DNA of 64,000 bases from Bacteroidota bacterium (GTDB taxonomy: Bacteria; Bacteroidota; Bacteroidia; Cytophagales; Cyclobacteriaceae): NCBI GenBank assembly GCA_018267285.1, contig JAFDYU010000012.1:165944-229943 (forward strand), in the 5' to 3' direction. Shown here in pieces: positions 4,937-58,956 of the stretch (position 1 is its first letter; every line of letters starts with the position of its first letter). The notes beneath the pieces were generated by a model. That model was given only the letters and a program-made list of their open reading frames with translations. It was not told the DNA's origin and made no database searches. Made by a program: the position numbers and the translations under genes.

Positions 4937-4974
4937 CAGTCCATATTTTCTAAACTTGTTTCAAATTACCAATC

Positions 4975-6135: not shown

Positions 6136-6138
6136 GTC

Positions 6139-6255
6139 TTAAATTCTCTTCACGGAGTTTCCCTTCACTTCTTTTTTGCTGTATGTGGGGCAGGTGTACT
6201 GACTGCATGCAGAAATAAAAGCAGCAAGGGCAACGAAAGCTAATACCTTTTTCAT
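6139..6255 (-). CDS. 38-residue lipoprotein
   Basis: A short reading frame of 38 codons running from an ATG at 6255 to TAA at 6139. It encodes a compact lipoprotein signal (MKKVLAFVALAAFISAC, Cys at residue 17) and a mature tail of only 22 residues with a second Cys and several lysines. A strong promoter match sits just upstream (6277-6306). It ends four bases from the stop of the convergent regulator gene. Tiny lipoproteins of this size are common in Bacteroidota but easily missed by gene finders. Function unknown. Confidence 0.7.
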   Translation of the reverse strand: MKKVLAFVALAAFISACSQYTCPTYSKKEVKGNSVKRI

Positions 6256-6276
6256 AGGAACCGGGTTAGTGTCTAA

Positions 6277-6306
6277 CAAAATTAAAATTCTTTTTCATTC
6301 AAACAA
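6277..6306 (-). promoter_or_regulatory. promoter of the 38-residue lipoprotein gene
   Basis: Read on the minus strand: TTG (6306-6304), 19 bases, then TAATTTTG (6284-6277), a full TAnnTTTG match. The predicted transcript starts near 6270, about 15 bases before the ATG. Confidence 0.6.
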
Positions 6307-6322
6307 ATACCTTTAAATAGGG

Positions 6323-7327: not shown

Positions 7328-7336
7328 AGGTAAAAA

Positions 7337-8116: not shown

Positions 8117-8119
8117 AAA

Positions 8120-10513: not shown

Positions 10514-10530
10514 AATCGTTAGGTTTTGTT

Positions 10531-10560
10531 CAAAAGTAGAAAAAAGAAACGAGCGGTCAA
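10531..10560 (-). promoter_or_regulatory. promoter of the E1 gene
   Basis: On the minus strand TTGACC (TTG at 10560-10558), 19 bases, then TACTTTTG (10538-10531), a full TAnnTTTG match 18 bases before the ATG. Confidence 0.65.
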
Positions 10561-10688
10561 TATTTAAAATCAGACCGCAATTTTATTGCGAAAATCTAAG
10601 TCAAAGCAAAATATATGTTTGAATCTGGTGTGATTTTAGGAATAAAAAAGGTCGTCAATTCTCATAAAAAACGAATGCAAACGTGTGT

Positions 10689-10696
10689 TATATTTG
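10689..10696 (+). promoter_or_regulatory. -7 promoter element of the alanine dehydrogenase gene
   Basis: TATATTTG matches TAnnTTTG and lies 41 bases before the start codon. No convincing -33 TTG is at the right distance. A second match, TATGTTTG, lies at 10614-10621 and could be an alternative upstream promoter. Confidence 0.5.
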
Positions 10697-10737
10697 TCCC
10701 CCGAAATTCTCAATTAACAACATAACTCTCCATAAAT

Positions 10738-11850
10738 ATGATTATCGGTGTACCCAAGGAAATCAAGAATAATGAAAACCGTGTGGCGCTTACTCCGGCT
10801 GGTGCTCAAGAATTTGTAAAGCGCGGGCATACGGTTTATGTTCAAACCAAAGCCGGTGAAGGCAGCGGATTCAGCGATGAAGAATACATTGGTGCAGGTG
10901 CGCGCATGCTTGCCAAAGCCGAAGAAGTCTTCGCCATTGCTGAGATGATTATGAAAGTGAAAGAACCGATCGAGCAGGAATACTCACTCATCAAAAAAGA
11001 TCAGCTTGTATTTACCTATTTCCATTTTGCTTCGTACGAGCCTTTAACTCATGCTATGATCAAAACCGGTTCGGTTTGTTTGGCCTATGAAACCGTGGAA
11101 CGCGATGGAAGCTTACCACTGCTCGTGCCTATGAGCGAAGTGGCCGGCCGTATGTCCATTCAGGAGGGTGCTAAATATCTGGAGAAACCTTTGAAGGGCC
11201 GTGGTATTTTGTTGGGCGGTGTGCCCGGAGTGATGCCCGCAAAAGTTTTGATTCTTGGCGGTGGTGTTGTGGGCACCAACGCGGCAAAAATGGCTGCCGG
11301 CATGGGTGCTGATGTTATCATTACAGATGTAAACCTCAACCGTCTGCGTTACCTTGATGACGTGATGCCGAAAAACGTACACACTATGGTGAGCAACGAT
11401 TATATATTACGCGACCTTGTAAGAACTTCAGATCTCATTGTGGGTGGTGTGCTTATTCCCGGTGCTAAAGCCCCGAAATTGATTACCCGCGATATGCTTA
11501 AGACGATGCGACCGGGCACCGTTTTAGTAGATGTTGCGGTGGATCAGGGAGGATGTATCGAAACCTGCAAGCCCACCACGCACGAAAACCCTACGTTTAT
11601 TATTGATGATGTTGTTCACTATTGTGTAGCGAACATGCCGGGGGCTGTGCCGTACACTTCTACTCTAGCACTCACAAACGCCACCCTTCCGTATGCGCTG
11701 AAACTGGCCAATCAGGGCTGGAAGAAAGCCTGTGCCGAAAATCAAGATTTGAAAAAGGGATTGAATGTGATCAGTGGAAAAGTTGTTTACAAGGCTGTTG
11801 CCGATGCCTTCAATCTTCCGTACACGGATGTGAAAGAATTTTTGAACTAA
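10738..11850 (+). CDS. ald: alanine dehydrogenase
   Basis: A 370-residue NAD-dependent alanine dehydrogenase that interconverts L-alanine and pyruvate plus ammonia in the cytosol. The N-terminus MIIGVPKEIKNNENRVALTP is typical. Residues that bind pyruvate and carry out catalysis in the characterised family members are present at the same numbers: R15, K75 and H96. The Rossmann fold shows GGGVVGTNAAKMAAGMGADV near 178 and the DVAVDQGG segment near 270 carries the catalytic Asp. Length equals the family norm. The gene stands alone, with its own promoter and a terminator shared with the convergent AsmA-like gene. Confidence 0.96.
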   Translation: MIIGVPKEIKNNENRVALTPAGAQEFVKRGHTVYVQTKAGEGSGFSDEEYIGAGARMLAKAEEVFAIAEMIMKVKEPIEQEYSLIKKDQLVFTYFHFASYEPLTHAMIKTGSVCLAYETVERDGSLPLLVPMSEVAGRMSIQEGAKYLEKPLKGRGILLGGVPGVMPAKVLILGGGVVGTNAAKMAAGMGADVIITDVNLNRLRYLDDVMPKNVHTMVSNDYILRDLVRTSDLIVGGVLIPGAKAPKLITRDMLKTMRPGTVLVDVAVDQGGCIETCKPTTHENPTFIIDDVVHYCVANMPGAVPYTSTLALTNATLPYALKLANQGWKKACAENQDLKKGLNVISGKVVYKAVADAFNLPYTDVKEFLN

Positions 11851-11871
11851 GTGAAATATTAGATTTTTCTC

Positions 11872-11906
11872 AAAAGAAGTCATCCCCGAGGTGACTTCTT
11901 TTATTT
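11872..11906. terminator. bidirectional intrinsic terminator
   Basis: An 11-bp perfect stem AAAAGAAGTCA/TGACTTCTTTT (11872-11882 with 11892-11902). The A-rich left and T-rich right flanks allow termination both for ald and for the convergent AsmA-like gene. Confidence 0.8.
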
Positions 11907-11912
11907 CCTAAC

Positions 11913-14900
11913 TCAGTACGGTAACTTATGACCTTTGCCCAGTGCAACTTTAGGGTTGTTGTACATGCCCGTGACGTGAAACGGGATTTTTATTTTTGTC
12001 AACGGGATTAATTCAATTTTTACAAGATAGTTCACTTCCCCGGCCATCGTATTCACGCCTTCAATGTCTGCATCAAAACCTGCCACTTTAATTGAAAAAG
12101 GTTTCACAATGATCTTGTTGTCTTTAATTTCTGTTTGCATACTGAAGTCCTTCAGATGGGGGTCGTTTATTTCATTTTTCTTAGCGCTCTTGCTAATCTC
12201 TTCAAATAATTTCATGCCTTTGATTTTGGCATCGGCAATATGCAGCGTACCGCCCCCTTCAAGTGTTTCCAACTTTGGAGACAAGTCCTTTTTTAGCTCG
12301 CCTTTTAGTTTGTAATCAACTGAAAATTTCCCGTACGTGTTAGCAGCCGAGGGGGCCAAATCCCGCACCAATTTAACTTCGCGGTAAGCTCGGTTAATAT
12401 CCAGGTCTTTTACGTTTAAATCCAGATAAAAAAGTGGGTGAGCCCAGCTGCGCGTATCGTAGCTTGCTCGTACATTAAATTGTGCATCGAGCGAGTTGAA
12501 GCCCGTCTCGTGCAAACTCATAACTCCTTCTTTAAACACGATATCTCCATTCATAGCAAAAATCTTCAGGTCTTCGTATTGCACTGCGCCAATCCTGGAG
12601 TCGAAAATAAAATTGATATTTCGGGGTACTTCTATTACCCTGAGTTTTGAGTGAGCAGTGTCTTGCAAAGGAACAATCTTGCCCGTAGCGGTTCGTGGTG
12701 GCGGCATCCACTGGCTTAAACTTAAGGTGTCGCACAGCAATTCAAGATCGCCATTTATCATGTCGTTGTTCTTGGTTACAAACGCCATATAATTGGTTAC
12801 ATCGCCTTTTATACTTACTGTACTCTTGCCGAATTTTCCATTAAAATTTTTAAGACGAATTTTTGAGGGTGTGAAATCAAAAAAGGCACTATTGATGTTT
12901 ATCGGGTTAGGAACTTTACTGCCAGCAATATTAATTCCACTAAAAACAATTTTTCCGTTTGATTGAGTTTTTGAATAATCGCCACGCTCCAAATCGCTGA
13001 TCAAACCACCGGTTTTTAATTGGGCATCTACAAGCCCCGAAAATGTTACGCCTTCCATCGGGTATAGCTGTGCAACCTTTGCCAAATCCATTTTTCCGTT
13101 TACCGTAAGTTCGTATTTGTAATTATTCAGATCGGTTAAGCTCCCGGTAATATCAAATGGTTCATCTTCAAGGGTGTAGGTAAGTTTATCGATATTCATT
13201 TTTGCATCGGAAAGTGTCCCTGATTTACTCAGCGCTTCGGCATAAAAATGAATGTTTTTCAATGGAGGGAAATCCTTGTATTGAATAAATCCATCCGACA
13301 ACTTAATTTTTGTATCGACCCGTGGAAATTTATTATTGATTTTACTGTATAGACCCTTAGCCATTAAATCAAGGCTATAGTGTCCTTTTAAAGCATAGCC
13401 ATTAATGGGGTAAATTTTTTCGATGTCTGCAAGATCAATATCGGCATCAATATCGGCATCAACTTCTGTATCGGGGTAACCACTTAATTTAGCATAGCCA
13501 TGGAGTATGTTATCATCAACTTCAGCATGCATTTGGTGAAGGTTGATTTTGGTATTTGCTAAGTCACCAGAAGTATTTTCCGCATTTAAATGGAATTGAA
13601 TGTTTGAAATCGGCCTGGGAAGGCTATCGTACTGAATCGCCCCGTTAGATAATTTAAGATTGAGATTAAAGACCGGGATGCGCGAAATATCCCGGTTGAT
13701 AATTCCTTTGGCTTTTAATTCAAAATCAATTTTTCCTTTGAGTGAAACACCCTTTACCGGATACAGCCGTTCGAGTGATGCCAGTTCGAGATCGGCAAAT
13801 ACATCGGCATCAATTTTAGGAGCATAGAGTCCTTGCACTTTTATCTTTCCGTGCACCGGATGTTTACCGAGTTCCACATGAAAGTTTTTTACATCAATAA
13901 CCGTACTGTCTATAATTCTTTCTGGGTTGTCGATCACCATATCAAACTGAATATTATTGAACGCCTCGGGCAGGCTGTCAATTTTTACCATTGCATTTTT
14001 AACATTTAAATCGAAATGAAAGGCGGGCGTTTCTTTTGTTGTAGCCGAATAGACCCCATCCAACGAACCAGAAAAAGCCAAGTCACCACTTGTTTCGAAG
14101 TAATCGAAGTTTTTCAGGTATAAGCCCGGCACCAACGACAAGATGTTTTTAAAGGAAGTCTCCTCTGCTTGAAACTTCATCTTCATTGCAAATTCATCAA
14201 CAACCTGTTGTAAGAACCCATTAATACTGAATATGAAATGATTGATCTGGATTTTATTTTTCTTAAACGTGTACTTACTCTCTGGCAGGTTTATTTCCAT
14301 AATTAAGTCCAACCCAAGAGCTTTTCTAAAAAGATATTGAACCTTATCGTAGCTAAGCGAAAATTGCCGTATGGTAGTGATCGTTTCATAATCAAATATA
14401 TCTTTATTAAAATCACCACCTCCGGTATGGTCGATATCAAAAGCTTCAATAAAAACATTTCGTTTCCAGTCGGTGTACTTAATAACCCCGTTGTCAATGC
14501 TGATTTTATCAATGGCTATGTTTATGGATGAGGGTTTGGATGCAACCGCTGAGTCTTTTTTCTTTTTGACATCGTAATTGGTTTTACCGTCTTTAAGTAC
14601 GTATAAATTTATTTCAGGGTTAACCAAATGAATGCTGTTTAGCTCAATTTCACGTTTAGTCAAAAGGCTCCATAAGTTCACTTCGAGTGATGTTTCTTTT
14701 ATTGCAGTGAGTGTGTCGTGGCGGAACTCGTCATGGCCTTTGATTATTAAATCTTGAACTCTCAACGTGAGATTGGGAAAGTGTTTGAATAATTTTAATT
14801 CAACTGCACTGAATGTTACGTCTGCATTTATCTGTTGGTCTATTTCTTTTTCTAAATCGGTACGAATTTGTTCATGATAAATTTTGGGCAACACCACCGC

Positions 14901-45152: not shown

Positions 45153-45225
45153 AATGAGGTTGGTTTGAACTATTAAGGTACAAAAACCGATGATACATCA
45201 AAATGGGAAATATGTGGCCTATTGG

Positions 45226-45254
45226 AACAAAAAAAGTGACATGAAAGTCACTTT
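45226..45254 (-). terminator. tRNA-side intrinsic terminator
   Basis: Perfect 8-bp stem AAAGTGAC/GTCACTTT (45233-45240 with 45247-45254) followed on the minus strand by a T-run. It directly follows the 3' end of the tRNA fragment, as terminators of tRNA genes do. Confidence 0.75.
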
Positions 45255-45260
45255 AAGGAA

Positions 45261-45306
45261 GTGGGCCCTGCTGGGAACGATCCAGCGACCCTCAGATTAT
45301 GAGTCA
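45261..45306 (-). other. tRNA 3' fragment with CAU anticodon; probable attachment-site half
   Basis: The minus strand reads as the anticodon loop CTCATAA, the variable region, a T arm GCTGG/CCAGC with 7-base loop, and an acceptor end AGGGCCCAC, the layout of a tRNA-Ile(CAU) or tRNA-Met. The D arm and 5' half are missing. The T loop reads ATCGTTC rather than TTCGATC, so it would not fold to a normal tRNA. It is a relic next to a tyrosine recombinase, whose relatives use tRNA 3' ends as integration sites. Confidence 0.7.
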
Positions 45307-45465
45307 TTTTTTTTGTTTTCCTTATCCTTCCGATGTTTTCATTTTCTTCGTTTCCGTTCTAAAAACGAAATTTTTGTTTCCTATAACAACCCATCATTGT
45401 ACATTTTAACCCCGATTGTATGTAGAAAGTATGTAGAAATTCTCAAGGCTAAACATTATAACAAT

Positions 45466-46773
45466 ATGATTGGAGTAACAACTAGTATTATCCTAGATAC
45501 AAGAACCATGAAAAAGGACGGGACTTTTGCTGTAAAGCTTCGCCTCACTTACAACAGAGAACAGAAGTATTATCCTATTAACATCCATTTAACATCTGAA
45601 GATTGGAAGAAAACATTATCCTCTAAACCAAGACAAGAATTTAAGGAACACAGATTATACTTCAACAAGATTGAAGAACGCGCGGTTGACATCATCAAAA
45701 ATTTACAACCATTCTCATTTGAAGGATTCGAAAAGAAATTTGATCAACGACCAGATCGTTCAAAAGATGTATTTTCTTATTTCAACGCCTACATCCAATT
45801 GTTAAATAATGAAAAACGAATTGGGACAGCGGCCAGTTATCAATGCGCTCATAATTCATTTAAAAAATACATAGTATCTAAAAACCGAAAGAAACTGCAT
45901 TTTGAAGATGTAACACCCGAATTATTGATCAATTATGAAAAATGGATGGTCGAAGAAGATAACTCCTCATCTACATCTGGAATATATGCTCGATGTCTTA
46001 GAACTATGTATAACATGGCCATCGAAAACGGGGTGATAGCTCGTGATTTTTATCCCTTTGGCAAAAGGAAATATAAGATTCCAGGCTCCCGAAATGTCAA
46101 GAAAGCACTTGCGCTTCCGGAGATAGAAAAGCTCATAAAGTACAAACCTGTTAATGAAGCAGAAGAACGCGCACGAGATTTTTACATATTCAGCTATTTG
46201 TGCAATGGCGCAAATATAAAAGACATTGCTAAGCTGCAGTTCAAAAACATTTCTTCTTCATCGATTACGTTCATTCGGGAAAAAACGAAAAGAGCAACAA
46301 AGCAAAACTCAAAACCAGTCATCGCAATGATGCTTCCAGAAATAAAAAATATAATCAACAAATGGGGCGTGAATACCAGCTCATCCAATGATTACATCTT
46401 TCAAATCATAAATGATTCAGATGATGATTTAAAGCAATTCAAAAAAATTCAACAAGCAACAAAGACCATTAACAAATACATGAAACGGATTGGAGAGAAA
46501 TTGGGGATCAGCACAAAACTAACGACATATACTGCGAGGCATTCTTTCGCCACAGTTCTTAAAAGATCAGGCGCATCAACTGAATTCATCAGTGAAAGTT
46601 TAGGTCATGCTGATATACACACAACTGAAAATTATCTCGATAGCTTTGAAAATAATCAACGTCTCGAATTCCAGAAACAGCTTTTGAATTTCAACAGCGT
46701 TCATCACCAAGATCGAGAACGGCTAGACAGATCCTTACTTCTCCACCATCGAGAAAATTGCAAAGGCTCTTAA
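45466..46773 (+). CDS. tyrosine recombinase (integrase), CTn/IntDOT-like Bacteroidota type
   Basis: A 435-residue protein from ATG 45466. The N-terminal beta domain (ILDTRTMKKDGTFAVKLRLTYN) is the arm-binding type of mobile Bacteroidota integrases; a SAM-like core-binding domain (about 105-210) follows. The catalytic part has Arg358 and His359 in TARHSFAT, His381 in LGHAD, and Tyr390 in ENYLDSF. The Arg-I position, in CNGANIKDIAKLQ, is Asn250, as CTnDOT IntDOT is known to have Ser there. An integrase at a tRNA-derived site implies an integrated element to its right. No excisionase is identified. Confidence 0.9.
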   Translation: MIGVTTSIILDTRTMKKDGTFAVKLRLTYNREQKYYPINIHLTSEDWKKTLSSKPRQEFKEHRLYFNKIEERAVDIIKNLQPFSFEGFEKKFDQRPDRSKDVFSYFNAYIQLLNNEKRIGTAASYQCAHNSFKKYIVSKNRKKLHFEDVTPELLINYEKWMVEEDNSSSTSGIYARCLRTMYNMAIENGVIARDFYPFGKRKYKIPGSRNVKKALALPEIEKLIKYKPVNEAEERARDFYIFSYLCNGANIKDIAKLQFKNISSSSITFIREKTKRATKQNSKPVIAMMLPEIKNIINKWGVNTSSSNDYIFQIINDSDDDLKQFKKIQQATKTINKYMKRIGEKLGISTKLTTYTARHSFATVLKRSGASTEFISESLGHADIHTTENYLDSFENNQRLEFQKQLLNFNSVHHQDRERLDRSLLLHHRENCKGS

Positions 46774-46897: not shown

Positions 46898-48282
46898 TCC
46901 TGAGCGATTGAAATTTGATTTTTCTTCCATCTTTGCGCAAAAAAAAAAAAAATTTATCGTTGAACACACGAACTTCCTATCACACCGAACTTAAATGCCT
47001 GGCTCGTGAGAACCTCCTTACAAAGGATGTATGCGACTTGATTCCACGCTCCAACATCTGGCGCTGGAAGCATGAACCATCAGGCAAATACAAAACCTTT
47101 GATCTCAATTTAAGGGGAACTCAGGATTACGAACTGATCAGATGTTTCTCTCAGAATAAGAAAGCAAAACGCGTTTTCTCGGCTTATGTGCGCTTGGGCA
47201 AATTCTTTGTCGGGCTTGTTCAGGGCATCCCTAAATTCCACAAACAGCTTCGGGAAAATAAACATCAGATAGTCAAAGTGGTTGACCGTGTAAAAGATTC
47301 ACTCGGAATGATAAATGTTTTGAAGTCGTTTGGGGTTTCCGTTCACACCTTTCGCCAATGGAAACTCGATACCGTTACGCCCTGTTTCGAATCCATTGTG
47401 AACCGGTGCAACCGAATTTACCCAACACAACTTTCAAAAACAGAAGTGAGGACGATAAAAGAAAAACTAACGGATCCCCTGCATCAATATTGGCCTATCT
47501 CTTCCATCGCTTTCCATTCTTTGAGAAATGGCTCACTGCCTTTAAGCTTAAACACATGGTACAAGTATGCCAACCGGATGGGGGTGAACCGGCCAAAGCC
47601 AGCCGACCGGAGGAAGAAATTTTTAACGGGCATCCGAGCGAATCGCCCTAACCGGATTTGGCATGCCGACATCACCCGTTTTGTTACGCTGGATAATGTA
47701 ATCCATTACATCTATCTGGTAGTTGATAACTTTTCGAGGAAAATACTTTCGTGGCGCGTTGCCAACAAAGTCAGTGCTTTGATAAGAAGGGAAACCATCG
47801 ATGAAGCTACGAGGCATTTGGAAAACCTGGACGAACACATTTTGCTTCTCACCGATGGTGGCCCGGAAAATTCGCTGAAAGAGTATTTGGAAACCCTTGG
47901 AGTGAAAGTTACTCACCAAAAAGCGATGATCGATGTGCATTGTTCAAACTCGTTGATCGAAGCCCACAATAAGGTGATCAAGTACAACTACCTGTACAGA
48001 AAGCCCATTAACGATGGCTTTCAACTTATCCGAGAGCTCGACTTTTGTTGCAACAATTTCAATGGTCGGCCACATATTTCGCTTAACGGGTTGACTCCTG
48101 ACGAAAGCTATGCAAACGTGAAGCTCGATGATGAACGGCTAAGAAAACTGAAAAAGGAAGCGGGCATCAAAAGAAAGCAGGATAATCTCAAGAACAGGTG
48201 CGGGGTGTGTGCCGCATGAACCAGAAATTAGAAACCCTACTTCTAAAAGTTGATCAGGCCACTTTAAAATCGCTGAACAATT
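46883..48282 (+). mobile_element. putative insertion sequence with DDE transposase
   Basis: AATTGTTTAGCG (46883-46894) and the inverted CGCTGAACAATT (48271-48282) match at 11 of 12 bases and enclose one transposase of normal IS size (about 1.4 kb). No target duplication could be seen outside them, and the inverted repeat is short, so the boundaries are provisional. Confidence 0.45.
46915..48219 (+). CDS. DDE-type transposase (rve core, IS3/IS481-like)
   Basis: A 434-residue transposase. The retroviral-integrase-like core has the metal triad D252 (WHADIT), D314 (LTDGGPEN) and E349 (SLIEAHNK), with the D-E spacing of 34 residues expected of IS3/IS481 groups. An upstream helix-turn-helix-like part (about 95-145) and a Lys-rich N-terminus are present. 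The frame has no ATG at its 5' end: the only plausible start is TTG at 46915, and a run of 14 adenines (46939-46952) follows it. The -1 frame is open across this run, so slippage or an incorrect N-terminus is possible. The end KRKQDNLKNRCGVCAA has two cysteines. Confidence 0.85.
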   Translation: MIFLPSLRKKKKNLSLNTRTSYHTELKCLARENLLTKDVCDLIPRSNIWRWKHEPSGKYKTFDLNLRGTQDYELIRCFSQNKKAKRVFSAYVRLGKFFVGLVQGIPKFHKQLRENKHQIVKVVDRVKDSLGMINVLKSFGVSVHTFRQWKLDTVTPCFESIVNRCNRIYPTQLSKTEVRTIKEKLTDPLHQYWPISSIAFHSLRNGSLPLSLNTWYKYANRMGVNRPKPADRRKKFLTGIRANRPNRIWHADITRFVTLDNVIHYIYLVVDNFSRKILSWRVANKVSALIRRETIDEATRHLENLDEHILLLTDGGPENSLKEYLETLGVKVTHQKAMIDVHCSNSLIEAHNKVIKYNYLYRKPINDGFQLIRELDFCCNNFNGRPHISLNGLTPDESYANVKLDDERLRKLKKEAGIKRKQDNLKNRCGVCAA

Positions 48283-48459
48283 CTTAATTTCGTTGCGTGT
48301 TCCAACATTGAAACACTGATTTGTAAAAAAGTCGTGGGAGTGCCAGTGGGAGTGCCAACGCAAAACGATCTACACCATGCTCGATGCCTTCATTGGGAAG
48401 AAAAAACTAAAGGACGCCCTCTCGAACGTCCTTTCTGATGTGAAGTGAAAAACGAATTC
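48220..48459. other. intergenic stretch between transposase and lipoprotein gene
   Basis: A 240-base gap between convergent genes. It includes the putative right IS end (48271-48282), a short direct repeat GGGAGTGCCA around 48335-48357, and the terminator at 48409-48434. I see no gene in it. Confidence 0.6.
48409..48434 (-). terminator. intrinsic terminator of the Rhs locus
   Basis: Perfect 8-bp stem AAAGGACG/CGTCCTTT (48409-48416 with 48427-48434) followed on the minus strand by a T-rich tail (TTAGTTTTTTCTTC). It lies 26 bases past the stop codon of the lipoprotein gene that closes the operon. Confidence 0.8.
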
Positions 48460-48936
48460 TTATTTCTCGCCCATTGATCGTTCAACGGGGTAAAGGTCAT
48501 AAAAAGAGCTTGTTGTCAGAGTATTAGATTTCTTCGTTACAAAAAACTTAGACTGCCCCCTAGAGAATTTTATTTCTGCATTCATTTCAACAGGTCGGAA
48601 TTGAACTTTCCCATCCAGACCATAATACTGACTTTCGTAAACAATGCTTTTACCTTTAGTAAAAACTAAGCGATAGTAGTTATCTGGAAGATGATCACAG
48701 TTGCATTCAAATCCCAATGCCCGATTAAGTTCGGCTACCGTCATCAATCCTCCAAAAACATAGAGGCTATCCCAATCAAAATCCGTTAGTTCATTTATAT
48801 CCACTAAACATTTCGAAGTATCTTGGCTGCCGCAACTCTCTTCAATGCGATTTGCAACTTTCTCATCGAATGACTTCGAACAACCAATGAATACAAAGAA
48901 AATTACAATTAGAAGACCCCAATTTGCTTTGATCAT
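48460..48936 (-). CDS. lipoprotein, probable immunity protein of the adjacent Rhs toxin
   Basis: About 158 residues from ATG 48936, preferred over an ATG 24 bases upstream because it gives the standard lipoprotein signal (MIKANWGLLIVIFFVFIGC) and overlaps the toxin stop by ATGA, the classic coupled arrangement. The mature part has six cysteines within about 85 residues (ESCGSQDTSKC, FECNCD) and no recognised domain. Its position after the variable C-terminus of the Rhs protein, unusual sequence and lipid anchor fit a polymorphic-toxin immunity factor acting in the periplasm. This is inference from context. Confidence 0.65.
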   Translation of the reverse strand: MIKANWGLLIVIFFVFIGCSKSFDEKVANRIEESCGSQDTSKCLVDINELTDFDWDSLYVFGGLMTVAELNRALGFECNCDHLPDNYYRLVFTKGKSIVYESQYYGLDGKVQFRPVEMNAEIKFSRGQSKFFVTKKSNTLTTSSFYDLYPVERSMGEK

Positions 48937-51900
48937 TGTTCTTTCCTTTTTAGTTGCCATTCTTCAGGTTGCTTTAGGCCATTCTCCCTTAGAGATTGAG
49001 TATTCCCAACAGCTTGCTCATATTGCTTCTGTGTGAGTTTTGCCCTTGTGATCGAATAACCGCCTTTAGTTTCTTGAACAGTCCACATGCCGTTATCTTT
49101 AAATTCATTGATCACAGCTAATGCCAGACCAACGTTAGTAGCATTTGGATTATCTTCTCCGATTCCTTGTCCAATTATATTGTTTAGTAAATCTGCCATA
49201 GCATCTGCTTCCGCCAACTTAGCTTTACCGCCACCAGCTACTGTATAACCATTTGGTGTGACACCAACTTCTGGAACAGTAAATCCTTCATGGGCATAGC
49301 CAGCAGTAGCAGCCATGTCCTTCCCAAATTCTCTTGTAATCATTGCTTGCCAAATTCCGTGACGAAGCGCATTTCTATTTGACCCTTCACCTACCTGACT
49401 CTTAGGATCGTTAATTGTCGCATTTATAGAAAAATTGGCTGCAATCGTTGAAATGTTGTTAGACCCTTCAGTGTATTTCCCAATTGCCATTCCTGTCGGT
49501 GGATGGGCTATTAAAAATGAAAGTTCAGCATTCTTTTGTCTTCTACTTTGTTCTCCTGGTGTCGGAGGCTTGACCGCTTCTAAACCCTCCAACTCAACAT
49601 GCGAAGTAACCTTATTCTCACTGAACGCATACGGACTGTTATAAAGATACTTTTCTGCAAGCGGATCAATATTGAAAAATCTTCCAATATCAGGCTGATG
49701 GTTTCTCCATTTGAAAGAGTCCCAGTTTAATCCCAAATCATATATGTGTTCTTGCCCTTGGAATTTGAATTTGTTAGGCGTGCTGTTCTCACGAGAGTAG
49801 CTATTAAACGCGAGACCGAACGGATAGTAGTCATCGGTCTGCACCACGGGAGATTTGGTATGTGTCACTTTAAAGTCATCGAAGTAAACTTCCACGGGTG
49901 TAGGGCTTTCGTTGGATAACCAAATATACATATATCCGGCCTGCCGGGTTACCACTTGTGCAAAGAGCCTTTCGTGGGGCACGTTGGTGCCGTCTTCTTT
50001 GGCGGTGCCCTGCATCTGCACATAGCCGCCATCGAGCAGCGCATAGCTCCGGTCAAACACCAGGTAGTTTAAAAATGCTTTGGGGGCGTTTGGGTTGTCG
50101 CTGCCGTAGTCGATCAGCCCTGCGTAAGAGAAGGGCGTTGTGCCGTTGGTGGTGTAGCCGGCACCATCTATCACTGTGCCTGCACTCGCTGTACCCGCCA
50201 CGATCTGTGCCAATAATTGTGTGAGTGCTGCGGTGTTGTTGGGGTTGCTGCCGTCCACATACTTGGCGTACACTTCCATGTTTACCGTATCGCCCGGCAT
50301 CACGCTGATGGAGCGTGCCACTCCGTTCACTTCGTTGCTCGAGCCACTCAGTCTTTCGGAGTATGCTGTCACACCGTTGTGCGTGTGATCGAAGAGCGTG
50401 GAGTTCACCGTGCGTGCATCATCGTACCTCAAGAACTGGCTTGCCTCTGTCGTTGCGTTCGCAGTTTCGAACGTGGCTTTGGGTTGGTCGACTTCCTTTT
50501 TGGTAGTGAACGTGAGCCGCACGTTGCCGAGATGGTCTTTGAGGTGATATTGGTATTCTGCATCTACCGGCTGCCAATGCGTTCCGGTGATGGAACGCAG
50601 CTCCATGCTGTTGATAAAGAGTTGTTCCCCTACCACCGGTGCTGACCAAAGCACACCTATTTTCAAACGCCTGATTCCGGTTGGCACGTCAAACTGTTGG
50701 CTTACCAAGGCTTCATTTTGCGAGCCGATTGGTACCTGAGTAGTGTTATAAACAATTTGCGGGTTTCCGCCTGCGATCACGTTTTGCCAGCCGGAAACGA
50801 ACAGGGTGGCTTTGCCGGCTGTACTGCCGGCCACGGTGTACCCCTTCACCCGTATTTCGTAGCGCTTGCCCGGCTCCACCATAATAATGTCGCTCACCAC
50901 ACCGGGGGTGGAGTTACCCTGGTTGCAAATCACTTTCACGTAATTTTCTGAGCCCACGTTAACGGAAGAAAGCGACACCCCTGCGTTTGGCAAAAAACCG
51001 TCTGTATTCTGTGCATCGGGGTTTGAGAATAACTGAGCGTTGGCAACTTGCTGATTATTGATTACCACGCGGCCTTCCTCATGGTTTATGAATTGAAGTT
51101 TCAGGTTTTCGTAAATAAAGTCTCCCTGATAGTCGGTGTTTTTATTTTCCCCTCGGTCGTACGATTCTTTGGCTACCTTGCGTCCGGTGGCGTCATAGTA
51201 AAAATAGACATAGTTGGTTGCCGATTTGGTGACTTTTTCAGGCAAGTTCAGGGAGTTGTAGTTTATACCGGTGATGCCCTTGTTCCTGTCGGTGAGCAAA
51301 TTTCCATTGGTGTCGTAGGCATAGTCATCATCAACCACGTTTCCATCGATGAACCCTTTTTGCTTGTCCCCACCGATGCCCTCGTTTACCCTCAATAATT
51401 GATTTCCCCGGTAGTTGTATTGTAATACATCCATCTGGGCTCCGTTGTCTCCGGTGCGGTTTAGCGACAGAATGTTTCCGTTCAGGTCATAGCTCAAATT
51501 GTCTTCGTGGTAAGATGGAGAGGCAGACCATGCCGTTGTAAATTCATTATGGCTGGCCGACTGAAGCCGGTTCATGGGATCATATTTAAAATTATACCCC
51601 CTCGCCTTGGGTAGACCCAGTGACGAATTGCTGCTGTACTCCATAGCCGAAATATTTCCGTTGTACTGTAGGTCATTTGCCGAAGTAAGCCCCGGTACCG
51701 GATCGTTGTAGTGAAGGTTTAGCCCAAACAAATCGTTGGTGTCATCGTTGGTCGCTCCTCCATCATCCATTGTTTTCGAGTTGTTCATGCTGGTGAGCCA
51801 GCCGCGGATGTTGTAGCGGTAGTCTACGCTTTGCTTAAAGGTGTTCCCACTGTCACCGTTGGTAGAGTAGAGTCTTTTGTCAACAAGTTGGCCGATTTCA

Positions 51901-54497
51901 TTGTATTCATTCTTCGAGAGCAAAACTTCCGGAAGTCCATTTACCGAATGCCAGCTATTAATCAACCGACCCACGTGGTCGTATTCAAATCGCCTGGAAG
52001 TGCTCACAACCGCTGTGCCAACCGAATGGGTAGATTTTGTATTCATCACTTTGCCCACAAAATCGTAGACATTGGTGTTTCTGTCTATGCCCCCTTGTGT
52101 GTTTGTGCTTGCTGTCTGAATGACCCGGTAATGGTCGTCATAGTAGTTTACATTCCAAAGAAAATAGTTGGTCAGTTCCATTAATTTCGTTTTTGTGCCG
52201 GTCACTTTTCCAATGACGTTTGTGAAACTGCTTCCAGCAATTTTATACTGGTCAGGGTATTCGTCAGGCTTATAGTCCATCCGGCTGTCGGCATACAGTG
52301 CCTTGAAGTTATAATTGTCGTAATAGGTAACTGTGTGTACATCGAGCAGGGAAAGGTTGTTGGGAAACACCGTATAACTGTAACCATGGTTATTTGTGGC
52401 ACCATTAAAATACTCACAATAATTTGTGGTGCTTATCAGGGTGCTCATGCCTACCTGATCCACATAACCAGTGTGAGTATAAATACCCGACATAACAGGC
52501 CTGTTCAAAACATCGTATTTGGTAAATGTCCATTGATTTTTCAGCCGTTGGTTGCCGTCTTGGGTAAGTACCAGACGGTCGCGGTTGTCGTAGACCATGT
52601 ACACCCAATCGGCTCCGGGCAATTTCTTAGCAATGAGGCGCCTTCTTCCATCGTATTTATATTGAAACCCAAGGCTATCCACTACAATCCGCTGTGGTGT
52701 CTTTACCTCAATGGGGTCGCTTTGTAAGGTGAAGCCGGTGGCCTTAGTGCTGGTGCAGTTCCAACGGTATTTGCCCTCGGCACTTGCGTTGGTATTGGCG
52801 ATACGATACGTGTTGCCGGTGAGCGGGTCGGCATTGGAGGAAGATATGTCTATCCATGTGTTGTTGCTCGTCTGGAGTTTCTGCCATGTAATGTTAGAGG
52901 TGAAGCTACCTTTGGTGCGCGCAGCGAGGAGCAAGTCGGCCCCCACGCTTAGGGACTGAGTGGGTCTGTCGCTAACGTTTTTTTGTGGGCTGTAGGTAAA
53001 CGTTGTTATCCCCATGTTAACGAGAGGCTCCAAAACTGAAAAATCAAGTTTATTGTTGTTCAATTTTAACATTAAAGTACTATCGGGATGAATGTTATTA
53101 TTCGCCAGGTCAGTAGTAAGATTTGTTATGTTGGTTATCAAGTTATCATCAAAATAAACGAGCACATAACCGTGTGCGTGCTTTGATATATTAAGAAGCG
53201 AAGAGGGTATACTGTTGAATCTGTTGGCATCAGCGGATATGTAATCTAGTTTCGTCAAGTTGGCTACTGAGGGAAAATTTCCGGAAAACTGATTCCCCCA
53301 AATGACTATACCCGATAGGTTGACCCACTTATCCAAACTGGGAAATGTGCCTGAAAATTTGTTGCTGCCAATTTGAAAATCAACCATAGCATTGGAGAAT
53401 TTAGCCATGTCGATCGAACCACTCAATAGATTGTAGTTCGCAATGAATTGTTGCATTATTGTGTGTTTTGAAAAATCTGGCAATTCACCGGTCAACTCGT
53501 TATGGCCCACCCGTAGGGAATAAATACTTGTCAGTTCGCTCATCGAGGCCGGCAGTTCGCCCGATAATTTGTTGTTGTACAGATATAAATACCTGAGCTT
53601 TGACAGATTGCCGATTGAGGCTGGGATGCTTCCGAACAACTGATTGGTGCAAAGCTCAAGGTCTGTAAGGTTAGTTAAATTGCAAATCGATGAAGGTATA
53701 TCTCCTGACAGTTTGTTGTTGCCCAGGTTCAGGGTAACCAAACTCATCAAATCCCCAAGCTCGGGGGGGATGTTTCCGGTGAGTTGATTGTTATTCAATC
53801 TGAGCGTTTGAAGTTTATTCAGATAGCCAATATTTGATGGAATAGTATTTGTCAAATTATTACTTGACAAATCCATATATGTAAGATTTACCAAATTGGA
53901 GAAGTCACCCGGCAACGTGCCCGTTCGGTGGGTGTTGTTCAAATCTAGTATTGCCAGGTTCGGAAGGCTAGTTGTAATCCATGTTGGAATAGGTGCCGGG
54001 TCTAGTCCACTGCAATTGCGAAGCGAAAAGGTTGTCAATGAGGTTAGCAAAGATAAATCTGGTATTTGGCCGTGTAGGGTTGCCTGATTGCCAAGATTGA
54101 GAATGGTTAGCGATGTCAACTGGTTTAAGAATTGCGGAATATCGGTTAGGGCAGTGGCGTAAAACTGAAGGGTTTTCAGGGCTTTGAGGTTTGCAATGGC
54201 TGAAGGTATTTTCCCAACAACGTTGTTCCCAGTATAAACCACCCCTGTCACATCCCCGTTCGTCACTGTCACTCCGTACCAAGTTGCCATCTGAGAGGCC
54301 GTAGCGGTTGCAGGCCAGTTGCCGGGAGTGGGCCAGTTGGTTTTTGTTGTCCAACTGGCTCCTCCCAGGCTGTCGTAAATGGCTTTCAATGCCTGGAACT
54401 CCTGGTCATCGGGCACAAGGTTGGTCTGAGCAAAGACATGAAAACCACTTGAGGCAATCAGGAAGGTAACCGTTAGTGAAAAAAATCTTAAGTTCAT
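48933..54497 (-). CDS. exported LRR-YD/Rhs polymorphic toxin with variable C-terminal domain
   Basis: An 1,854-residue exported protein (signal MNLRFFSLTVTFLIASSGFHVFAQ). Residues about 60-480 are leucine-rich repeats of the plant-specific type (LTYMDLSSNNLTNTIPSNIG, LRLNNNQLTGNIPPELGDL). An Ig-like stretch precedes the YD region that starts near 612 (FQYKYDGRRRLIAKKLPG) and runs to the Rhs core (DHLGNVRLTF near 1380; NIDPLAEKY near 1611). After LEGLEAV comes the variable end, with N-A-L-R-H-G-I-W near 1710 and AHE near 1736, resembling DUF6973-type toxin domains. It overlaps the lipoprotein gene by 4 bases. The missing DUF6443 domain is encoded by the gene before it. Confidence 0.85.
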   Translation of the reverse strand: MNLRFFSLTVTFLIASSGFHVFAQTNLVPDDQEFQALKAIYDSLGGASWTTKTNWPTPGNWPATATASQMATWYGVTVTNGDVTGVVYTGNNVVGKIPSAIANLKALKTLQFYATALTDIPQFLNQLTSLTILNLGNQATLHGQIPDLSLLTSLTTFSLRNCSGLDPAPIPTWITTSLPNLAILDLNNTHRTGTLPGDFSNLVNLTYMDLSSNNLTNTIPSNIGYLNKLQTLRLNNNQLTGNIPPELGDLMSLVTLNLGNNKLSGDIPSSICNLTNLTDLELCTNQLFGSIPASIGNLSKLRYLYLYNNKLSGELPASMSELTSIYSLRVGHNELTGELPDFSKHTIMQQFIANYNLLSGSIDMAKFSNAMVDFQIGSNKFSGTFPSLDKWVNLSGIVIWGNQFSGNFPSVANLTKLDYISADANRFNSIPSSLLNISKHAHGYVLVYFDDNLITNITNLTTDLANNNIHPDSTLMLKLNNNKLDFSVLEPLVNMGITTFTYSPQKNVSDRPTQSLSVGADLLLAARTKGSFTSNITWQKLQTSNNTWIDISSSNADPLTGNTYRIANTNASAEGKYRWNCTSTKATGFTLQSDPIEVKTPQRIVVDSLGFQYKYDGRRRLIAKKLPGADWVYMVYDNRDRLVLTQDGNQRLKNQWTFTKYDVLNRPVMSGIYTHTGYVDQVGMSTLISTTNYCEYFNGATNNHGYSYTVFPNNLSLLDVHTVTYYDNYNFKALYADSRMDYKPDEYPDQYKIAGSSFTNVIGKVTGTKTKLMELTNYFLWNVNYYDDHYRVIQTASTNTQGGIDRNTNVYDFVGKVMNTKSTHSVGTAVVSTSRRFEYDHVGRLINSWHSVNGLPEVLLSKNEYNEIGQLVDKRLYSTNGDSGNTFKQSVDYRYNIRGWLTSMNNSKTMDDGGATNDDTNDLFGLNLHYNDPVPGLTSANDLQYNGNISAMEYSSNSSLGLPKARGYNFKYDPMNRLQSASHNEFTTAWSASPSYHEDNLSYDLNGNILSLNRTGDNGAQMDVLQYNYRGNQLLRVNEGIGGDKQKGFIDGNVVDDDYAYDTNGNLLTDRNKGITGINYNSLNLPEKVTKSATNYVYFYYDATGRKVAKESYDRGENKNTDYQGDFIYENLKLQFINHEEGRVVINNQQVANAQLFSNPDAQNTDGFLPNAGVSLSSVNVGSENYVKVICNQGNSTPGVVSDIIMVEPGKRYEIRVKGYTVAGSTAGKATLFVSGWQNVIAGGNPQIVYNTTQVPIGSQNEALVSQQFDVPTGIRRLKIGVLWSAPVVGEQLFINSMELRSITGTHWQPVDAEYQYHLKDHLGNVRLTFTTKKEVDQPKATFETANATTEASQFLRYDDARTVNSTLFDHTHNGVTAYSERLSGSSNEVNGVARSISVMPGDTVNMEVYAKYVDGSNPNNTAALTQLLAQIVAGTASAGTVIDGAGYTTNGTTPFSYAGLIDYGSDNPNAPKAFLNYLVFDRSYALLDGGYVQMQGTAKEDGTNVPHERLFAQVVTRQAGYMYIWLSNESPTPVEVYFDDFKVTHTKSPVVQTDDYYPFGLAFNSYSRENSTPNKFKFQGQEHIYDLGLNWDSFKWRNHQPDIGRFFNIDPLAEKYLYNSPYAFSENKVTSHVELEGLEAVKPPTPGEQSRRQKNAELSFLIAHPPTGMAIGKYTEGSNNISTIAANFSINATINDPKSQVGEGSNRNALRHGIWQAMITREFGKDMAATAGYAHEGFTVPEVGVTPNGYTVAGGGKAKLAEADAMADLLNNIIGQGIGEDNPNATNVGLALAVINEFKDNGMWTVQETKGGYSITRAKLTQKQYEQAVGNTQSLRENGLKQPEEWQLKRKEQ

Positions 54498-54532
54498 TTG
54501 CGTGGGTTTCGTTTACGTGTAAACCAATTTTA

Positions 54533-57500
54533 TTACTTCTCTAACTTTTTAACAGCTTCGGGCGGAAGCACCACTACCAGGTTGCCGAGGTCATCGTAGA
54601 GGTAGTACGTACTAGCATAAAGTTTACCGTTGGCATCGCTACCGTATTGTACTTTTTTGCATACTGTTCTATTGAGCTTGTCAATGTACTCTATCACATC
54701 GTTGCCACGCTCATCGGTGGTAACATGGGCATAGAGCTGGCCGGCATTATAGTACCCTGATGGACCGGAAGGTAGAGTCACCAACCCTGTGGCCGCCTCG
54801 TAGATGAACAGGTACACTTCATTTGTTTGGTTGACTAAATATTGATAGCCAACATATTTGTTGTTCGTTTTCCAGTCTTGCCCAGGGCCAAACTGCTGCA
54901 GCGGCCGGTTCAGCGGTGACGGCTCGAAGATGGTCTCGCTGAAGGGACGGGTATCATCAATTACTTTATCCGGTTCGTTGTTGTTATAGTTAAGTACATT
55001 GGTGTAGGTTCCATCACTACCCATAAGAATATTTTTGTAGCGACCATTGCTCTCCAGTGAAACAAGCAAATATTTTCTTGACTCACGCCCAAACGCATCA
55101 TAGGTGGTGGGCGTAACGAGGTCGTTTTTTAAAGGCGATCCTTGAGTGATTACTGTTTGCACCAATCTCCCGAGTCCGTCAAAATAGCCAACCGATTGGT
55201 TCACTTGTTCCACCGGAAGGTTTTCCAAAGCGGCTGGATCACTTATACCAGAAACCAATGCACTGTTGGTAACCACGTAGTTCATTTGTACACCTGAAAA
55301 CTGACTGTTTACTGTAAAGCTTTGTGTGTATGTTGCTCCGCCCAGCATGGTAACTGTACAACTGTAGGTACCCGTCTGGCTTGTGGTCATCGTGCGCTGA
55401 TCAGAAAGGCTTCCTGTATCCTTAAACCACCGATAGCTCGAATAACCCGGGCCGATGTCCAAGGTTGCACTGCCCCCTACAATATAGGCTTGAGGTGGGG
55501 TTATCACAGGCACAGGATAGACCGTCACAACGGGTGTGAACGCTGGGCCAGCGCAGCCATTTGCTGAGGGTATGACATTGTAAGTAACAGCCCCTGATGT
55601 GCCATTGTTAATGGAAATATTTTGGGTGATGGATGAGCCAACGCCAGCTGCCGCACCACTCACGTTCGATGATGAAGAAACTGTCCAGCTATAAATTGTT
55701 CCCGGTACGTTGTTGGTGTTGGTGAATTGCACTGAGGTGGCCTGGCCAGAAAAAATCGTTGGGTTCACTGACGCATCCGCGGTCGGCCTGATCTGCACAT
55801 TTACCGTCACCGCAGTGTTCGATGCATTCCAGCATCCCGAAGAACTTCTGGCCCCGATGTAGTACTGGTTTGAGCCGTTCGTTGCTGCGATATAGGTACT
55901 GGCAGCAGCCAGTGGGGATGTATCTGTTCCATTCGCGCTGTTGCCCTGCCAGTACCAAGACACACCGTTTGGGGCACCACTGCATGAAAGTGTCTTTGGG
56001 TCGCATGTATTGGTGGATACCGTAATGTCGGAAAGGGGTGGTGCTGCGGGAGTTGGGTTCACCACGGCCGTGACCGGCATGCGATCATCAAAGGAAGATT
56101 CACATCCCGTTGTCGAGTTGAAGGACGCTACATAATAGGTGGTGCTGGACGTCAACGAGGGGGTCGTGTAGGATGTGCCCCCGGAGTGGTTCAGCCAATT
56201 GGAATTCACAAGCATCCCGTCATAAATCTTTAAGGTCGTGCCGTTCGGGCCAGGTGAGCCTGTGACCACCGATGCGCCATACGGGCACACACTGGTAGCA
56301 GAAAGGCCCGTTGCTATTGGCTCAGGGTTGACCGTGGCGGTGACGGGGGTCCTGGCCTGGCTGAGGCAGCCCAAAGTCCCGATGGTCTCTGCATAATATA
56401 CGGTGGTGCTGGCAATGGACGGGGTGGTGACCGAAGTCCCTGAAAATAAAGCGCTCCCACCGCTTGGAACTGAGTACCAATTGATATTGTTGCCGCCCGC
56501 ACCGGGGGTCGCGGTGAGTGAAAATGCCCCACTGATGCAGACAGGGCTTGGTGTGGTAACACTGGGGGCTGCAGGGTATGAGCTGATGGTCAGCACCACA
56601 GAAGACATTGCCGACTCACACTGTGTCGAAGAGTTGTAAGACGTGGCATAGTAGGTGGCAGTGGCCGACAACGTTGGTGTGGTATAGGTTGTACCAGAAG
56701 CAACAAATGAGGAAGGTCCACTGTACCATTTGACCACATCTCCTCCTGTCCCGACCGATGCCGAAAGGGAAAAGATATCCGGTCTACAGTGAATGCCACC
56801 ACCGGTGATGGAGGGCACGGCCGGTACTGGGCTGACAAAAGCAAAGACTTTTGCTCGGGTAGGACTTTCCGTACCACAGGTTGAATTGTAGCTGGCGGCC
56901 CAATAGAATGTCGTGCTGCCCACCAGGACGCTGTACGAAGTTCCCGTGGACAGGACACCTGGTGTATCTATATCTGAGCTATACCACCGGATATTGTCTG
57001 CACCTGACCCCGGGACGGCACTGAGTACTGCCGGGTTATCACTCCCGGTACAGATACTGCCGTTACTGGCTGATGAGGGTGCGGGGGGGACATTTGGCTG
57101 GGGCGTGACCGCAACCCAACTGCCGGAGTTTGTGGCACACCCTGTCTGGGTGTTCAACGATCCAACATAGAACGTGGGTGCTACGTTTGCAGGGGTGGTC
57201 CACGATGGCCCGGTAGCGCTTGGCGCCCCGGCCGCCTGTGAGGTGTAAAAGTTCAGTGTGTTCCCGTCAGAGCCCGCTGCCCCTGTGATCGTGGTGCTCC
57301 CGGCCGGGCCACAAAAAGCGCTGGCCGTGACCCCAGTGGGGGCAGATGGGATCGGGTTGACGTTGACGATGATGCTTTTGCCTGTCCCCGTGCACCCGTT
57401 GGACATTGGTGTTACATTGTATATCACCAGACCGCTCCCCGGGGACAGCAGATGGAGCATGTCGCTGATCGATGTCGCGGTCGTGTTGGTTGCCGTGCTC

Positions 57501-58849
57501 CCCCCTGTCGCGTTGCTGACGACCGGCAGTGTCCACGAATAGGTGGTACCCGATACACTGCTGCCCAAGCTGATGGATGTGTAGGTATTTGCACATACTC
57601 CTGTTGATTGGCTGTTTGCGGTGCTACCATTGATGGTCAGGTTGGGCACCGGCTTGACGGTCACGGTCATGGCCAACGATGAGCCTGTGCAGCCATTGGC
57701 CGATGGGACTATTGTATATGTAACGGTTCCCGCACTTGAACCTGTAGCTGCCAAAGTCTGCGACAGGCTGTAGGTATAGGGCGAGGTTGTGCCCGAAGTG
57801 CCGCTGCCGTCCGCTGCACCGCTCGCGTTGGTCATAGTTGCCGACCATGTATTGACCGTCCCGGCAACGTTGTTCGTAAAGACTATACTTGCACCTCCCG
57901 AGCAAATGGTCTGGTTGGGGGCGCTGACCGTTGGGATTGTGTTGATCACGGGCGTCACCGCCACACGGGCACTGACACCTGTTTCGCACCCGGTCGTGCT
58001 GTTATAGGTGGATACATAAAAGGCATTGGGGCCGTTGGCCTGCGCGGCCCACGAAGTCCCCGTAGAAGAAGGTGTCGTCCCCGTGGAAGTGGTATAAAAC
58101 CGTAGGTTGTCACCGTTTGTGCCCGGTGTACCACTGATGGTTATGTTCCCGGAGCTGCCGCAGGAGCTTGTTGAAGATACGGCAGTCGCAGCCCCAGGAA
58201 TGGGATCTATCGTGATGCTCCCGACCGATTGGGCTGGGCCCCAACTACCGCAACTGGATTGCCCCCGCAGGTAGAAATTTCCTGACGTTGCTGAAGTAAA
58301 GACGTGTGATGAGTTGGATATTGACGTACCGGTGGCGGAGGTTTGCCAATACCAGGTCACATTTGCAGGTCGGTTGCCTTCCTGTATGATACTTATGCTC
58401 CCGCATTTGGAGATAGTGAATGACGCAGTTGGCGTAGGTATTGTTGAGGGGCACAGTGTAACTGTTCTTGTTGCCGTCACTGAACCGCTGACAAGGAAAT
58501 TGACTTGACCGCTGCTACCGCTGCCCCAGGTAACGTTAGCTGTATAACAGTAGGTGGTCGTTCCTCCGCCTCCGCCTCCGCCTCCACCTCCGGGCATTTG
58601 TTGGGGCTGAACCATCTGTTTCATCACCATAGCCCCCGTACAGGCTCCTTGCACTTTGTTCGATGATGTTAACGTTCCCCCGGTCACTGTAAAAATACCG
58701 TTGGAATTTGTACTCGACACCGTATAAGTCTGGCTGCTTCCGTTTGTGGCGCTGGATGCCCCAATAATTTGTGCTGTTGTGAGTCCATAGCCCAGCAGGG
58801 AGAAGAACACTAATACATAACTTCTCAATAATTGCAGTTTCCTTTTCAT
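54533..58849 (-). CDS. exported Ig-repeat/DUF6443 protein, N-terminal half of a split Rhs protein
   Basis: About 1,438 residues from ATG 58849, which gives a clean signal peptide (MKRKLQLLRSYVLVFFSLLGYGLTTAQ); an ATG 45 bases upstream adds only charged residues. A Gly10 run (near 86-95) is followed by about a dozen Ig-like/CHU_C-associated repeats to roughly 1150, with recurrent patterns SGTPGTNGDNLRFYTTSTGT and TTFYWAASYNSTCGTESP. A DUF6443 domain occupies about 1185-1330 (VEQVNQSVGYFDGLGRLVQTV) and the protein stops in the first YD-like segment (YLYDDLGNLVVVLPPEAVKKLEK), 35 bases from the next gene. Normal DUF6443 proteins continue here into YD repeats, which the next gene encodes. Confidence 0.85.
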   Translation of the reverse strand: MKRKLQLLRSYVLVFFSLLGYGLTTAQIIGASSATNGSSQTYTVSSTNSNGIFTVTGGTLTSSNKVQGACTGAMVMKQMVQPQQMPGGGGGGGGGGTTTYCYTANVTWGSGSSGQVNFLVSGSVTATRTVTLCPSTIPTPTASFTISKCGSISIIQEGNRPANVTWYWQTSATGTSISNSSHVFTSATSGNFYLRGQSSCGSWGPAQSVGSITIDPIPGAATAVSSTSSCGSSGNITISGTPGTNGDNLRFYTTSTGTTPSSTGTSWAAQANGPNAFYVSTYNSTTGCETGVSARVAVTPVINTIPTVSAPNQTICSGGASIVFTNNVAGTVNTWSATMTNASGAADGSGTSGTTSPYTYSLSQTLAATGSSAGTVTYTIVPSANGCTGSSLAMTVTVKPVPNLTINGSTANSQSTGVCANTYTSISLGSSVSGTTYSWTLPVVSNATGGSTATNTTATSISDMLHLLSPGSGLVIYNVTPMSNGCTGTGKSIIVNVNPIPSAPTGVTASAFCGPAGSTTITGAAGSDGNTLNFYTSQAAGAPSATGPSWTTPANVAPTFYVGSLNTQTGCATNSGSWVAVTPQPNVPPAPSSASNGSICTGSDNPAVLSAVPGSGADNIRWYSSDIDTPGVLSTGTSYSVLVGSTTFYWAASYNSTCGTESPTRAKVFAFVSPVPAVPSITGGGIHCRPDIFSLSASVGTGGDVVKWYSGPSSFVASGTTYTTPTLSATATYYATSYNSSTQCESAMSSVVLTISSYPAAPSVTTPSPVCISGAFSLTATPGAGGNNINWYSVPSGGSALFSGTSVTTPSIASTTVYYAETIGTLGCLSQARTPVTATVNPEPIATGLSATSVCPYGASVVTGSPGPNGTTLKIYDGMLVNSNWLNHSGGTSYTTPSLTSSTTYYVASFNSTTGCESSFDDRMPVTAVVNPTPAAPPLSDITVSTNTCDPKTLSCSGAPNGVSWYWQGNSANGTDTSPLAAASTYIAATNGSNQYYIGARSSSGCWNASNTAVTVNVQIRPTADASVNPTIFSGQATSVQFTNTNNVPGTIYSWTVSSSSNVSGAAAGVGSSITQNISINNGTSGAVTYNVIPSANGCAGPAFTPVVTVYPVPVITPPQAYIVGGSATLDIGPGYSSYRWFKDTGSLSDQRTMTTSQTGTYSCTVTMLGGATYTQSFTVNSQFSGVQMNYVVTNSALVSGISDPAALENLPVEQVNQSVGYFDGLGRLVQTVITQGSPLKNDLVTPTTYDAFGRESRKYLLVSLESNGRYKNILMGSDGTYTNVLNYNNNEPDKVIDDTRPFSETIFEPSPLNRPLQQFGPGQDWKTNNKYVGYQYLVNQTNEVYLFIYEAATGLVTLPSGPSGYYNAGQLYAHVTTDERGNDVIEYIDKLNRTVCKKVQYGSDANGKLYASTYYLYDDLGNLVVVLPPEAVKKLEK
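58563..58592 (+). repeat. hexanucleotide repeat encoding a polyglycine tract
   Basis: Five tandem copies of CCTCCG (one as CCTCCA), on the coding strand CGGAGG, encode Gly residues in frame. Change in copy number would lengthen or shorten the Gly linker without a frameshift. Confidence 0.85.
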
Positions 58850-58956
58850 AACTTCTGATGAATTTAGATAAGATCTTTTATCTTTTATAGGCATGTGTTT
58901 TTTTATAGAGACTTAGTCTCACTAACTCTGACAGCCATTTAATGATTGCAAAAAGG

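Follow-up and report, generated by a model that had tools for sequence, protein, structure and literature searches.

Recurrent division of a Bacteroidota DUF6443-Rhs shell between two genes

Why should a shell protein that relatives make as one chain be encoded by two genes? The question is raised by a 64,000-nucleotide stretch of DNA (hereafter the window) from a Bacteroidota bacterium of the family Cyclobacteriaceae (assembly GCA_018267285.1, contig JAFDYU010000012.1, positions 165,944 to 229,943 of the forward strand). Here, two minus-strand genes, encoding chain A (54533–58849) and chain B (48933–54497), together hold one canonical Rhs shell with a DUF6443 domain. An earlier note, made from the sequence alone, pointed to this arrangement and to a plant-type leucine-rich repeat (LRR) module at the cut. 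We find that the split recurs, and think it probable that the two chains, exported separately, build one two-chain Rhs shell.

Gene structure and the seam

Both open reading frames (ORFs) are open. That of chain B spans 48933–54497 (1854 amino acids). That of chain A spans 54533–58894 (1453 amino acids), position 58849 being the methionine that opens the signal peptide. The cut, from the stop of chain A to the start of chain B, is a gap of 35 bases (54498–54532). Chain A comprises a signal peptide, Ig_7/PKD_5 modules, DUF6443 and the first part of the Rhs shell. Its DUF6443 (PF20041, E = 1.2e-37) covers residues 1221–1353 of 1453 (54836–55234). The protein terminates just past this domain, ending ...YYLYDDLGNLVVVLPPEAVKKLEK.

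Chain B opens with its own signal peptide (54426–54497). Eight strict plant-type LRR motifs follow (residues 205–409; 53271–53885); 500 shuffles yielded at most one, and the Pfam family LRR_14 matches with E = 6.5e-23. A linker common to LRR-type chain Bs, defined in a seven-locus alignment and immunoglobulin (Ig)-like by eye, then connects the LRRs to the shell (52686–52985). The shell segment (49578–52685) begins at residue 611 with FQYKYDGRRR, aligns with the region that follows DUF6443 in one-chain proteins and runs through the Rhs-associated core (TIGR03696; residues 1557–1638, 49584–49829). The core scores 34.0 bits against a cut-off of 32.5, and its end motif deviates from the usual form. 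The layout described in the earlier note is therefore borne out, and both halves look exported from their sequences. Its insertion of roughly 600 residues ahead of the FQYKYDGRRR segment also stands; besides LRRs and a signal peptide, it includes an Ig-like linker. Signal peptides were called by a simple hydrophobicity rule. By this heuristic they are clear in all 14 chain Bs and in 9 of the 14 chain As, and the remaining five chain As have hydrophobic N-termini by eye.

Where does the cut fall in the folded shell? In an AlphaFold2 model of a one-chain relative, it lies in a short loop between hairpins and leaves the strands intact. The fold of the shell model matches TcC strongly and a model of a fused chain A matches TcB moderately; such matches indicate a common fold, not function. 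TcC starts at model residue 181–184, the cut here is at about 237–246 and the weaker chain A model ends before the end of TcB. On these models, the cut would be near the TcB/TcC seam, within one or two hairpins, and not demonstrably in the same hairpin.

Seam residues are kept in the split form. Before the cut, agreement with the one-chain consensus at conserved positions is 0.81 in 21 split loci (L263 is left out) versus 0.82 in 70 one-chain proteins. After the cut, the values are 0.92 and 0.87. Distances between the two halves are correlated in 14 split loci (r = 0.55, reached in 1 of 2000 permutations) and in 30 one-chain proteins (r = 0.51, reached in none of 2000). With 21 split loci, the bare correlation coefficient of identities is 0.35, because loci reassort. 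Loci L253 and L254 are 97% identical at the shell start, 88% in the LRR leader and 81% in a small gene; they share 38% in DUF6443, 26% in NT (the gene ahead of chain A in the window) and 27% at the C-terminus. Mosaics broken at this joint also occur among one-chain proteins (L151/L154, 95% against 46%). Hence, recombination seems to act at the joint whether or not a gene boundary is there. The joint also tolerates inserts: its linker has a median of 16 residues in one-chain proteins and exceeds 50 residues in 11 of 70.

Recurrence and history of the split

Is the split peculiar to this locus? We searched 58 relatives (27 with DUF6443), and fetched the surroundings of 37 of 46 DUF6443 rows. Among 80 named loci with relatives of the post-DUF6443 segment, the segment shares an ORF with DUF6443 in 69 and does not in 11. 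A DUF6443 gene lies within the locus in 10 of these 11, and in none of the remaining one, the chimera L105. A profile of the junction matched 45 of 62 genomes of the genus. By eye, the junctions comprise 57 full-span one-chain cases, three single ORFs round an insert (G024:C81, G067:C765 and G035:C69, not scored as split) and 10 split loci with both halves, in nine genomes. Two of the 57 stop at position 134 or 152 of 160; outside the count are a few fragments and nine rows with lower scores (E above about 1e-14, mostly covering 49–157).

A profile of the joint between LRR, Ig-like linker and shell was run over 390 genomes of the family. At least 15 rows, in 10 genomes, scored at least 186 bits over the linker and shell start; they were counted among the best eight candidates per genome, so more may exist. 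DUF6443 is a separate ORF, or fused only to NT, in 13 of the 15. The other two are at contig starts, with no DUF6443 on the available stretch. The junction profile matched 145 of 391 genomes of the order and 107 of 196 of the family. The matches listed at these levels favour one-chain proteins, and we therefore draw no split frequency from them.

In total, we count 22 distinct loci that are split and retain both halves; they come from 17 genomes, isolates included. These are the window, L040, L046, L078, L079, L082, L083, L093, L094, L113, L133, L134, L135, L243, L252–L256, L258, L260 and L263. The same cut is found in the isolates Chryseolinea serpens, Dawidia soli and Reichenbachiella faecimaris, and in the single-contig genome G080. 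The DUF6443 gene ends at most about 430 bases from the chain B reading frame in 21 of the 22. The order is permuted in L113 (Dawidia soli, 2912–13864), which has DUF6443, NT, a small gene and then chain B, with 3.9 kb between the halves. Contig ends truncate chain B in L046, L079, L135 and L263, and chain A in L258. Genome G586 carries four split loci, plus another chain B located where a contig begins.

What precedes the shell in chain B varies. The leader is LRR in 13 loci (8–16 motifs each), Ig-like in four (L079, L082, L133, L243), Fn3 in two (L083, L260) and SprB/lectin-like in one (L040). A signal peptide is the sole leader in two, L263 and L046, the latter with an LRR remnant ahead. The recurrence in 22 loci and this range of leaders show that there was no single rearrangement with LRR inserted once, one of the histories suggested beforehand. 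By eye, the L040 leader is a repeated DGWxE-type lectin-like module. A similar module is inserted between YD repeats in the shells of L040, L041, L046 and L052.

Several loci stand outside the 22. DUF6443 is absent from the available stretch of L246, L257 and L259. In L247, NT-DUF6443 pairs are in tandem: the first has no chain B, while behind the second come a signal peptide and an Fn3-like leader that the contig end cuts off; the shell segment would lie past that end. In L105, the start of the NT gene runs into the middle of the Ig leader of a chain B, without DUF6443. Because a broken NT is joined to a mid-Ig leader, L105 looks like a deletion or chimera. Two further candidates were dropped: L042 was an artefact of Ns and overlapping frames, and G426 is one chain with an insert.

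Did the shell split once? On a 65-row tree, at least seven changes of the split label are required, and well supported branches force five of them. Six split rows, the window among them, form a clade (Shimodaira–Hasegawa-like approximate likelihood ratio test, SH-aLRT, 99). In a 34-row tree, the four splits then known form one clade (85/91) with one change; a 110-row tree with 14 splits needs at least four changes, two forced. A single clade of 23 split rows (L105 left out) was rejected by the approximately unbiased test (p = 0.0014) and a single clade of 13 LRR-type rows was not (p = 0.22), for groups named after a tree was seen and topologies that recombination may blur. Since a single split clade is rejected, the form changed more than once, either by repeated splitting or by splitting and later re-fusion. 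One split with later re-fusions may be the history behind these sequences.

Neighbouring genes and the C-terminal domain

The order of transcription on the minus strand is NT (62250–58957), chain A, chain B and a gene for a 166-amino-acid lipoprotein-like product (48960–48460), which overlaps chain B by 28 bases. NT encodes a signal peptide and a putative SpvB/TcB-like N-terminal protein with YD repeats at its end. Its profile match to YenB is weak, and SpvB matches were obtained in 2 of 36 relatives. In L093, L133 and L252, a single ORF holds both NT and DUF6443 (1513, 1376 and 1480 amino acids between stops, respectively), with the two domains 12–20 residues apart. Such fusions suggest that NT, DUF6443 and the shell follow one another as parts of a single large protein of TcB-TcC type. 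Pfam listed no PAAR family at E up to 0.1 for NT, chain A or chain B. Pfam and NCBIfam listed no C-terminal sorting domain of the type IX secretion system in either chain, although these models can miss divergent domains.

Near the C-terminus of chain B is DUF6973 (49104–49433; E = 2.2e-8, or 7.6e-10 with the C-terminal piece alone), predicted to be the toxic part. The lipoprotein-like gene is a predicted immunity gene. Synteny provides one case for a putative toxin-immunity pair and one silent case: a relative of the 166-amino-acid gene (E = 1.5e-8) lies directly after a similar C-terminus in L064, and none was found after the similar C-terminus of L113, where there is a different 140-amino-acid gene. 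C-termini are only 20–27% alike in four locus pairs with similar shells.

The gene immediately before the shell-bearing one encodes a member of a family of small secreted proteins (138–194 amino acids between stops) in 11 of the 13 split loci of LRR type and in 11 distinct one-chain loci. In L079 and L082, such a gene precedes the DUF6443 gene. The three members tried gave no Pfam match, and the family was not found in the window.

The draft source genome totals 3.33 Mb in 25 contigs; the window reaches up to the end of contig C3. On contig C2, an orphan Rhs core cassette (L036, 9124–10899) shares 94% DNA identity with window positions 49815–50560 over 747 bases. Its C-terminus differs from that of the window, and a lipoprotein-like gene lies behind it. 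Part of an integrase-like insertion sequence (IS) ORF recurs at about 98% identity at window 47943–48349, L036 7727–8133 and L038 5611–5981; each of these three copies is at most about 2 kb from Rhs pieces. Beyond the IS-like ORF in the window, and adjoining the locus, is an ORF that by eye resembles a tyrosine-recombinase integrase (45190–46773). Rhs-related pieces also sit at contig breaks, at the start of C5 (L037) and the end of C18 (L038).

A proposed two-chain shell, its rivals and known systems

How could two genes make one shell? NT and chain A would provide the first part of a hollow YD/Rhs cocoon, and chain B the remaining shell, the core and the variable C-terminal domain. Sec would export each chain via its own signal peptide. 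Outside the cytoplasm, the chains would join at the loop where the chain of relatives is continuous. The product would be a TcB-TcC-like shell enclosing the C-terminal domain. The cut would free a new N-terminus at the seam, where most lineages appear to mount a putative binding module (here LRR). The 166-amino-acid lipoprotein would protect the producer. Reassembly of exported halves, which the earlier note had offered as one of two outcomes, is in our view the best reading: the cut is in a loop, seam residues are kept and neither a second DUF6443 nor a further shell start was found in the source genome.

Alternatively, the halves have parted for good. Chain B would then be a complete effector that closes without DUF6443, and chain A a separate adhesin or a partner of NT. 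Consistent with this, each half has its own signal peptide by our heuristic, chain A is duplicated without chain B in L247, partners of split loci reassort and L105 retains chain B without DUF6443. However, L105 looks like a deletion or chimera, and seam positions on either side of the cut are as conserved as in one-chain proteins. Nor do the halves routinely stand alone: the DUF6443 gene accompanies chain B in 10 of 11 named loci and in 13 of 15 LRR-type rows, the other two being at contig starts. We judge a permanent separation unlikely.

Less likely still is a broken locus, in which a rearrangement fused an LRR gene to a toxin and the parts are degenerating. Rhs loci do recombine, the chain B core closely matches the C2 cassette, an IS-like piece nearby is shared with that cassette and L046 has a frame break in its LRR and a short leader. 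Against this, no frame break was noticed in the parts read of the other 21 loci, and the split form is inherited, the window belonging to a well supported split clade. Finally, an assembly or sequencing error at 54.5 kb, such as a misassembly or frameshift at 54498–54532, might be suspected in a 25-contig draft. The same cut recurs in independent assemblies, including the three isolates and G080. Hence, this explanation is refuted for the architecture, and we consider it highly improbable.

If chains A and B do build one shell, the split could make that shell combinatorial. Chains would be exported alone and one chain B could close with different chain As. A cell with several loci, such as G586, might then build mixed particles that pair NT/DUF6443 ends with various binding modules and toxic ends. 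That several lineages have a gene boundary at the seam would then follow from its double role as structural joint and recombination point. We put this extension forward as speculation.

A two-chain shell here would be a second, recurrent Rhs cocoon made from two gene products, with its joint near the TcB/TcC seam and one-chain forms still dominant in the family. The loci fall into a natural series, from a single chain with or without inserts to two chains whose leaders vary, and NT may be fused or separate. This series lets one ask how and why shells switch between one chain and two, and illustrates how a binding module can come to occupy the seam of a toxin carrier. For annotation, it is a warning that DUF6443 proteins without a shell, and LRR proteins ending in an Rhs core, may be partners.

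In openly licensed literature on Rhs, TcB-TcC and Bacteroidota toxins, a split DUF6443 shell is unreported in the titles and abstract openings listed, full texts lying outside this search. The same literature gave no papers for DUF6443, or for Rhs together with Cytophagales. Close relatives are the one-chain DUF6443-Rhs proteins of Bacteroidota, which have the same domains in the same order, occur in the same genus and have an NT gene nearby in most loci read. They carry DUF6443 and shell in a single ORF, whereas the window has two. Zhang et al. (PMC3482391) list, also for Bacteroidetes, polymorphic toxins of the TcdB/TcaC type that carry a signal peptide and an SpvB domain. RhsA, a type VI secretion system (T6SS) effector, also has an Rhs cocoon. 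PMC8765631 describes a cleavage close to its N-terminus, after which the severed piece remains bound; that chain break is made by a protease, and the one here by genes. T6SS Rhs effectors have a PAAR/VgrG-linked plug, whereas our Pfam scan found no PAAR and the chains have signal peptides instead. Teneurins and bacterial teneurin-like proteins share the YD shell fold. In PMC13018210, a bacterial protein has a chain break within the FN-plug, and FN-plug and NHL domains precede the shell; here, NT and DUF6443 do.

A close parallel is TcB-TcC of ABC toxins (YenB/YenC2, TcdB2-TccC3), a hollow Rhs shell made from two polypeptides, as PMC11067744 describes. The idea of a two-chain Rhs shell thus has a precedent, with its seam near the cut described here. 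Fused NT-DUF6443 ORFs (1376–1513 amino acids) are also similar in length to YenB (1487–1491 amino acids). The TcA family PF18276 matched none of one genome searched, where a control also matched nowhere. TcB-TcC shells would share with the one proposed here a division between two polypeptides. They differ in that, in our family, one-chain relatives prevail, NT and DUF6443 are mostly separate genes, and chain B has a predicted signal peptide and mostly a predicted binding module.
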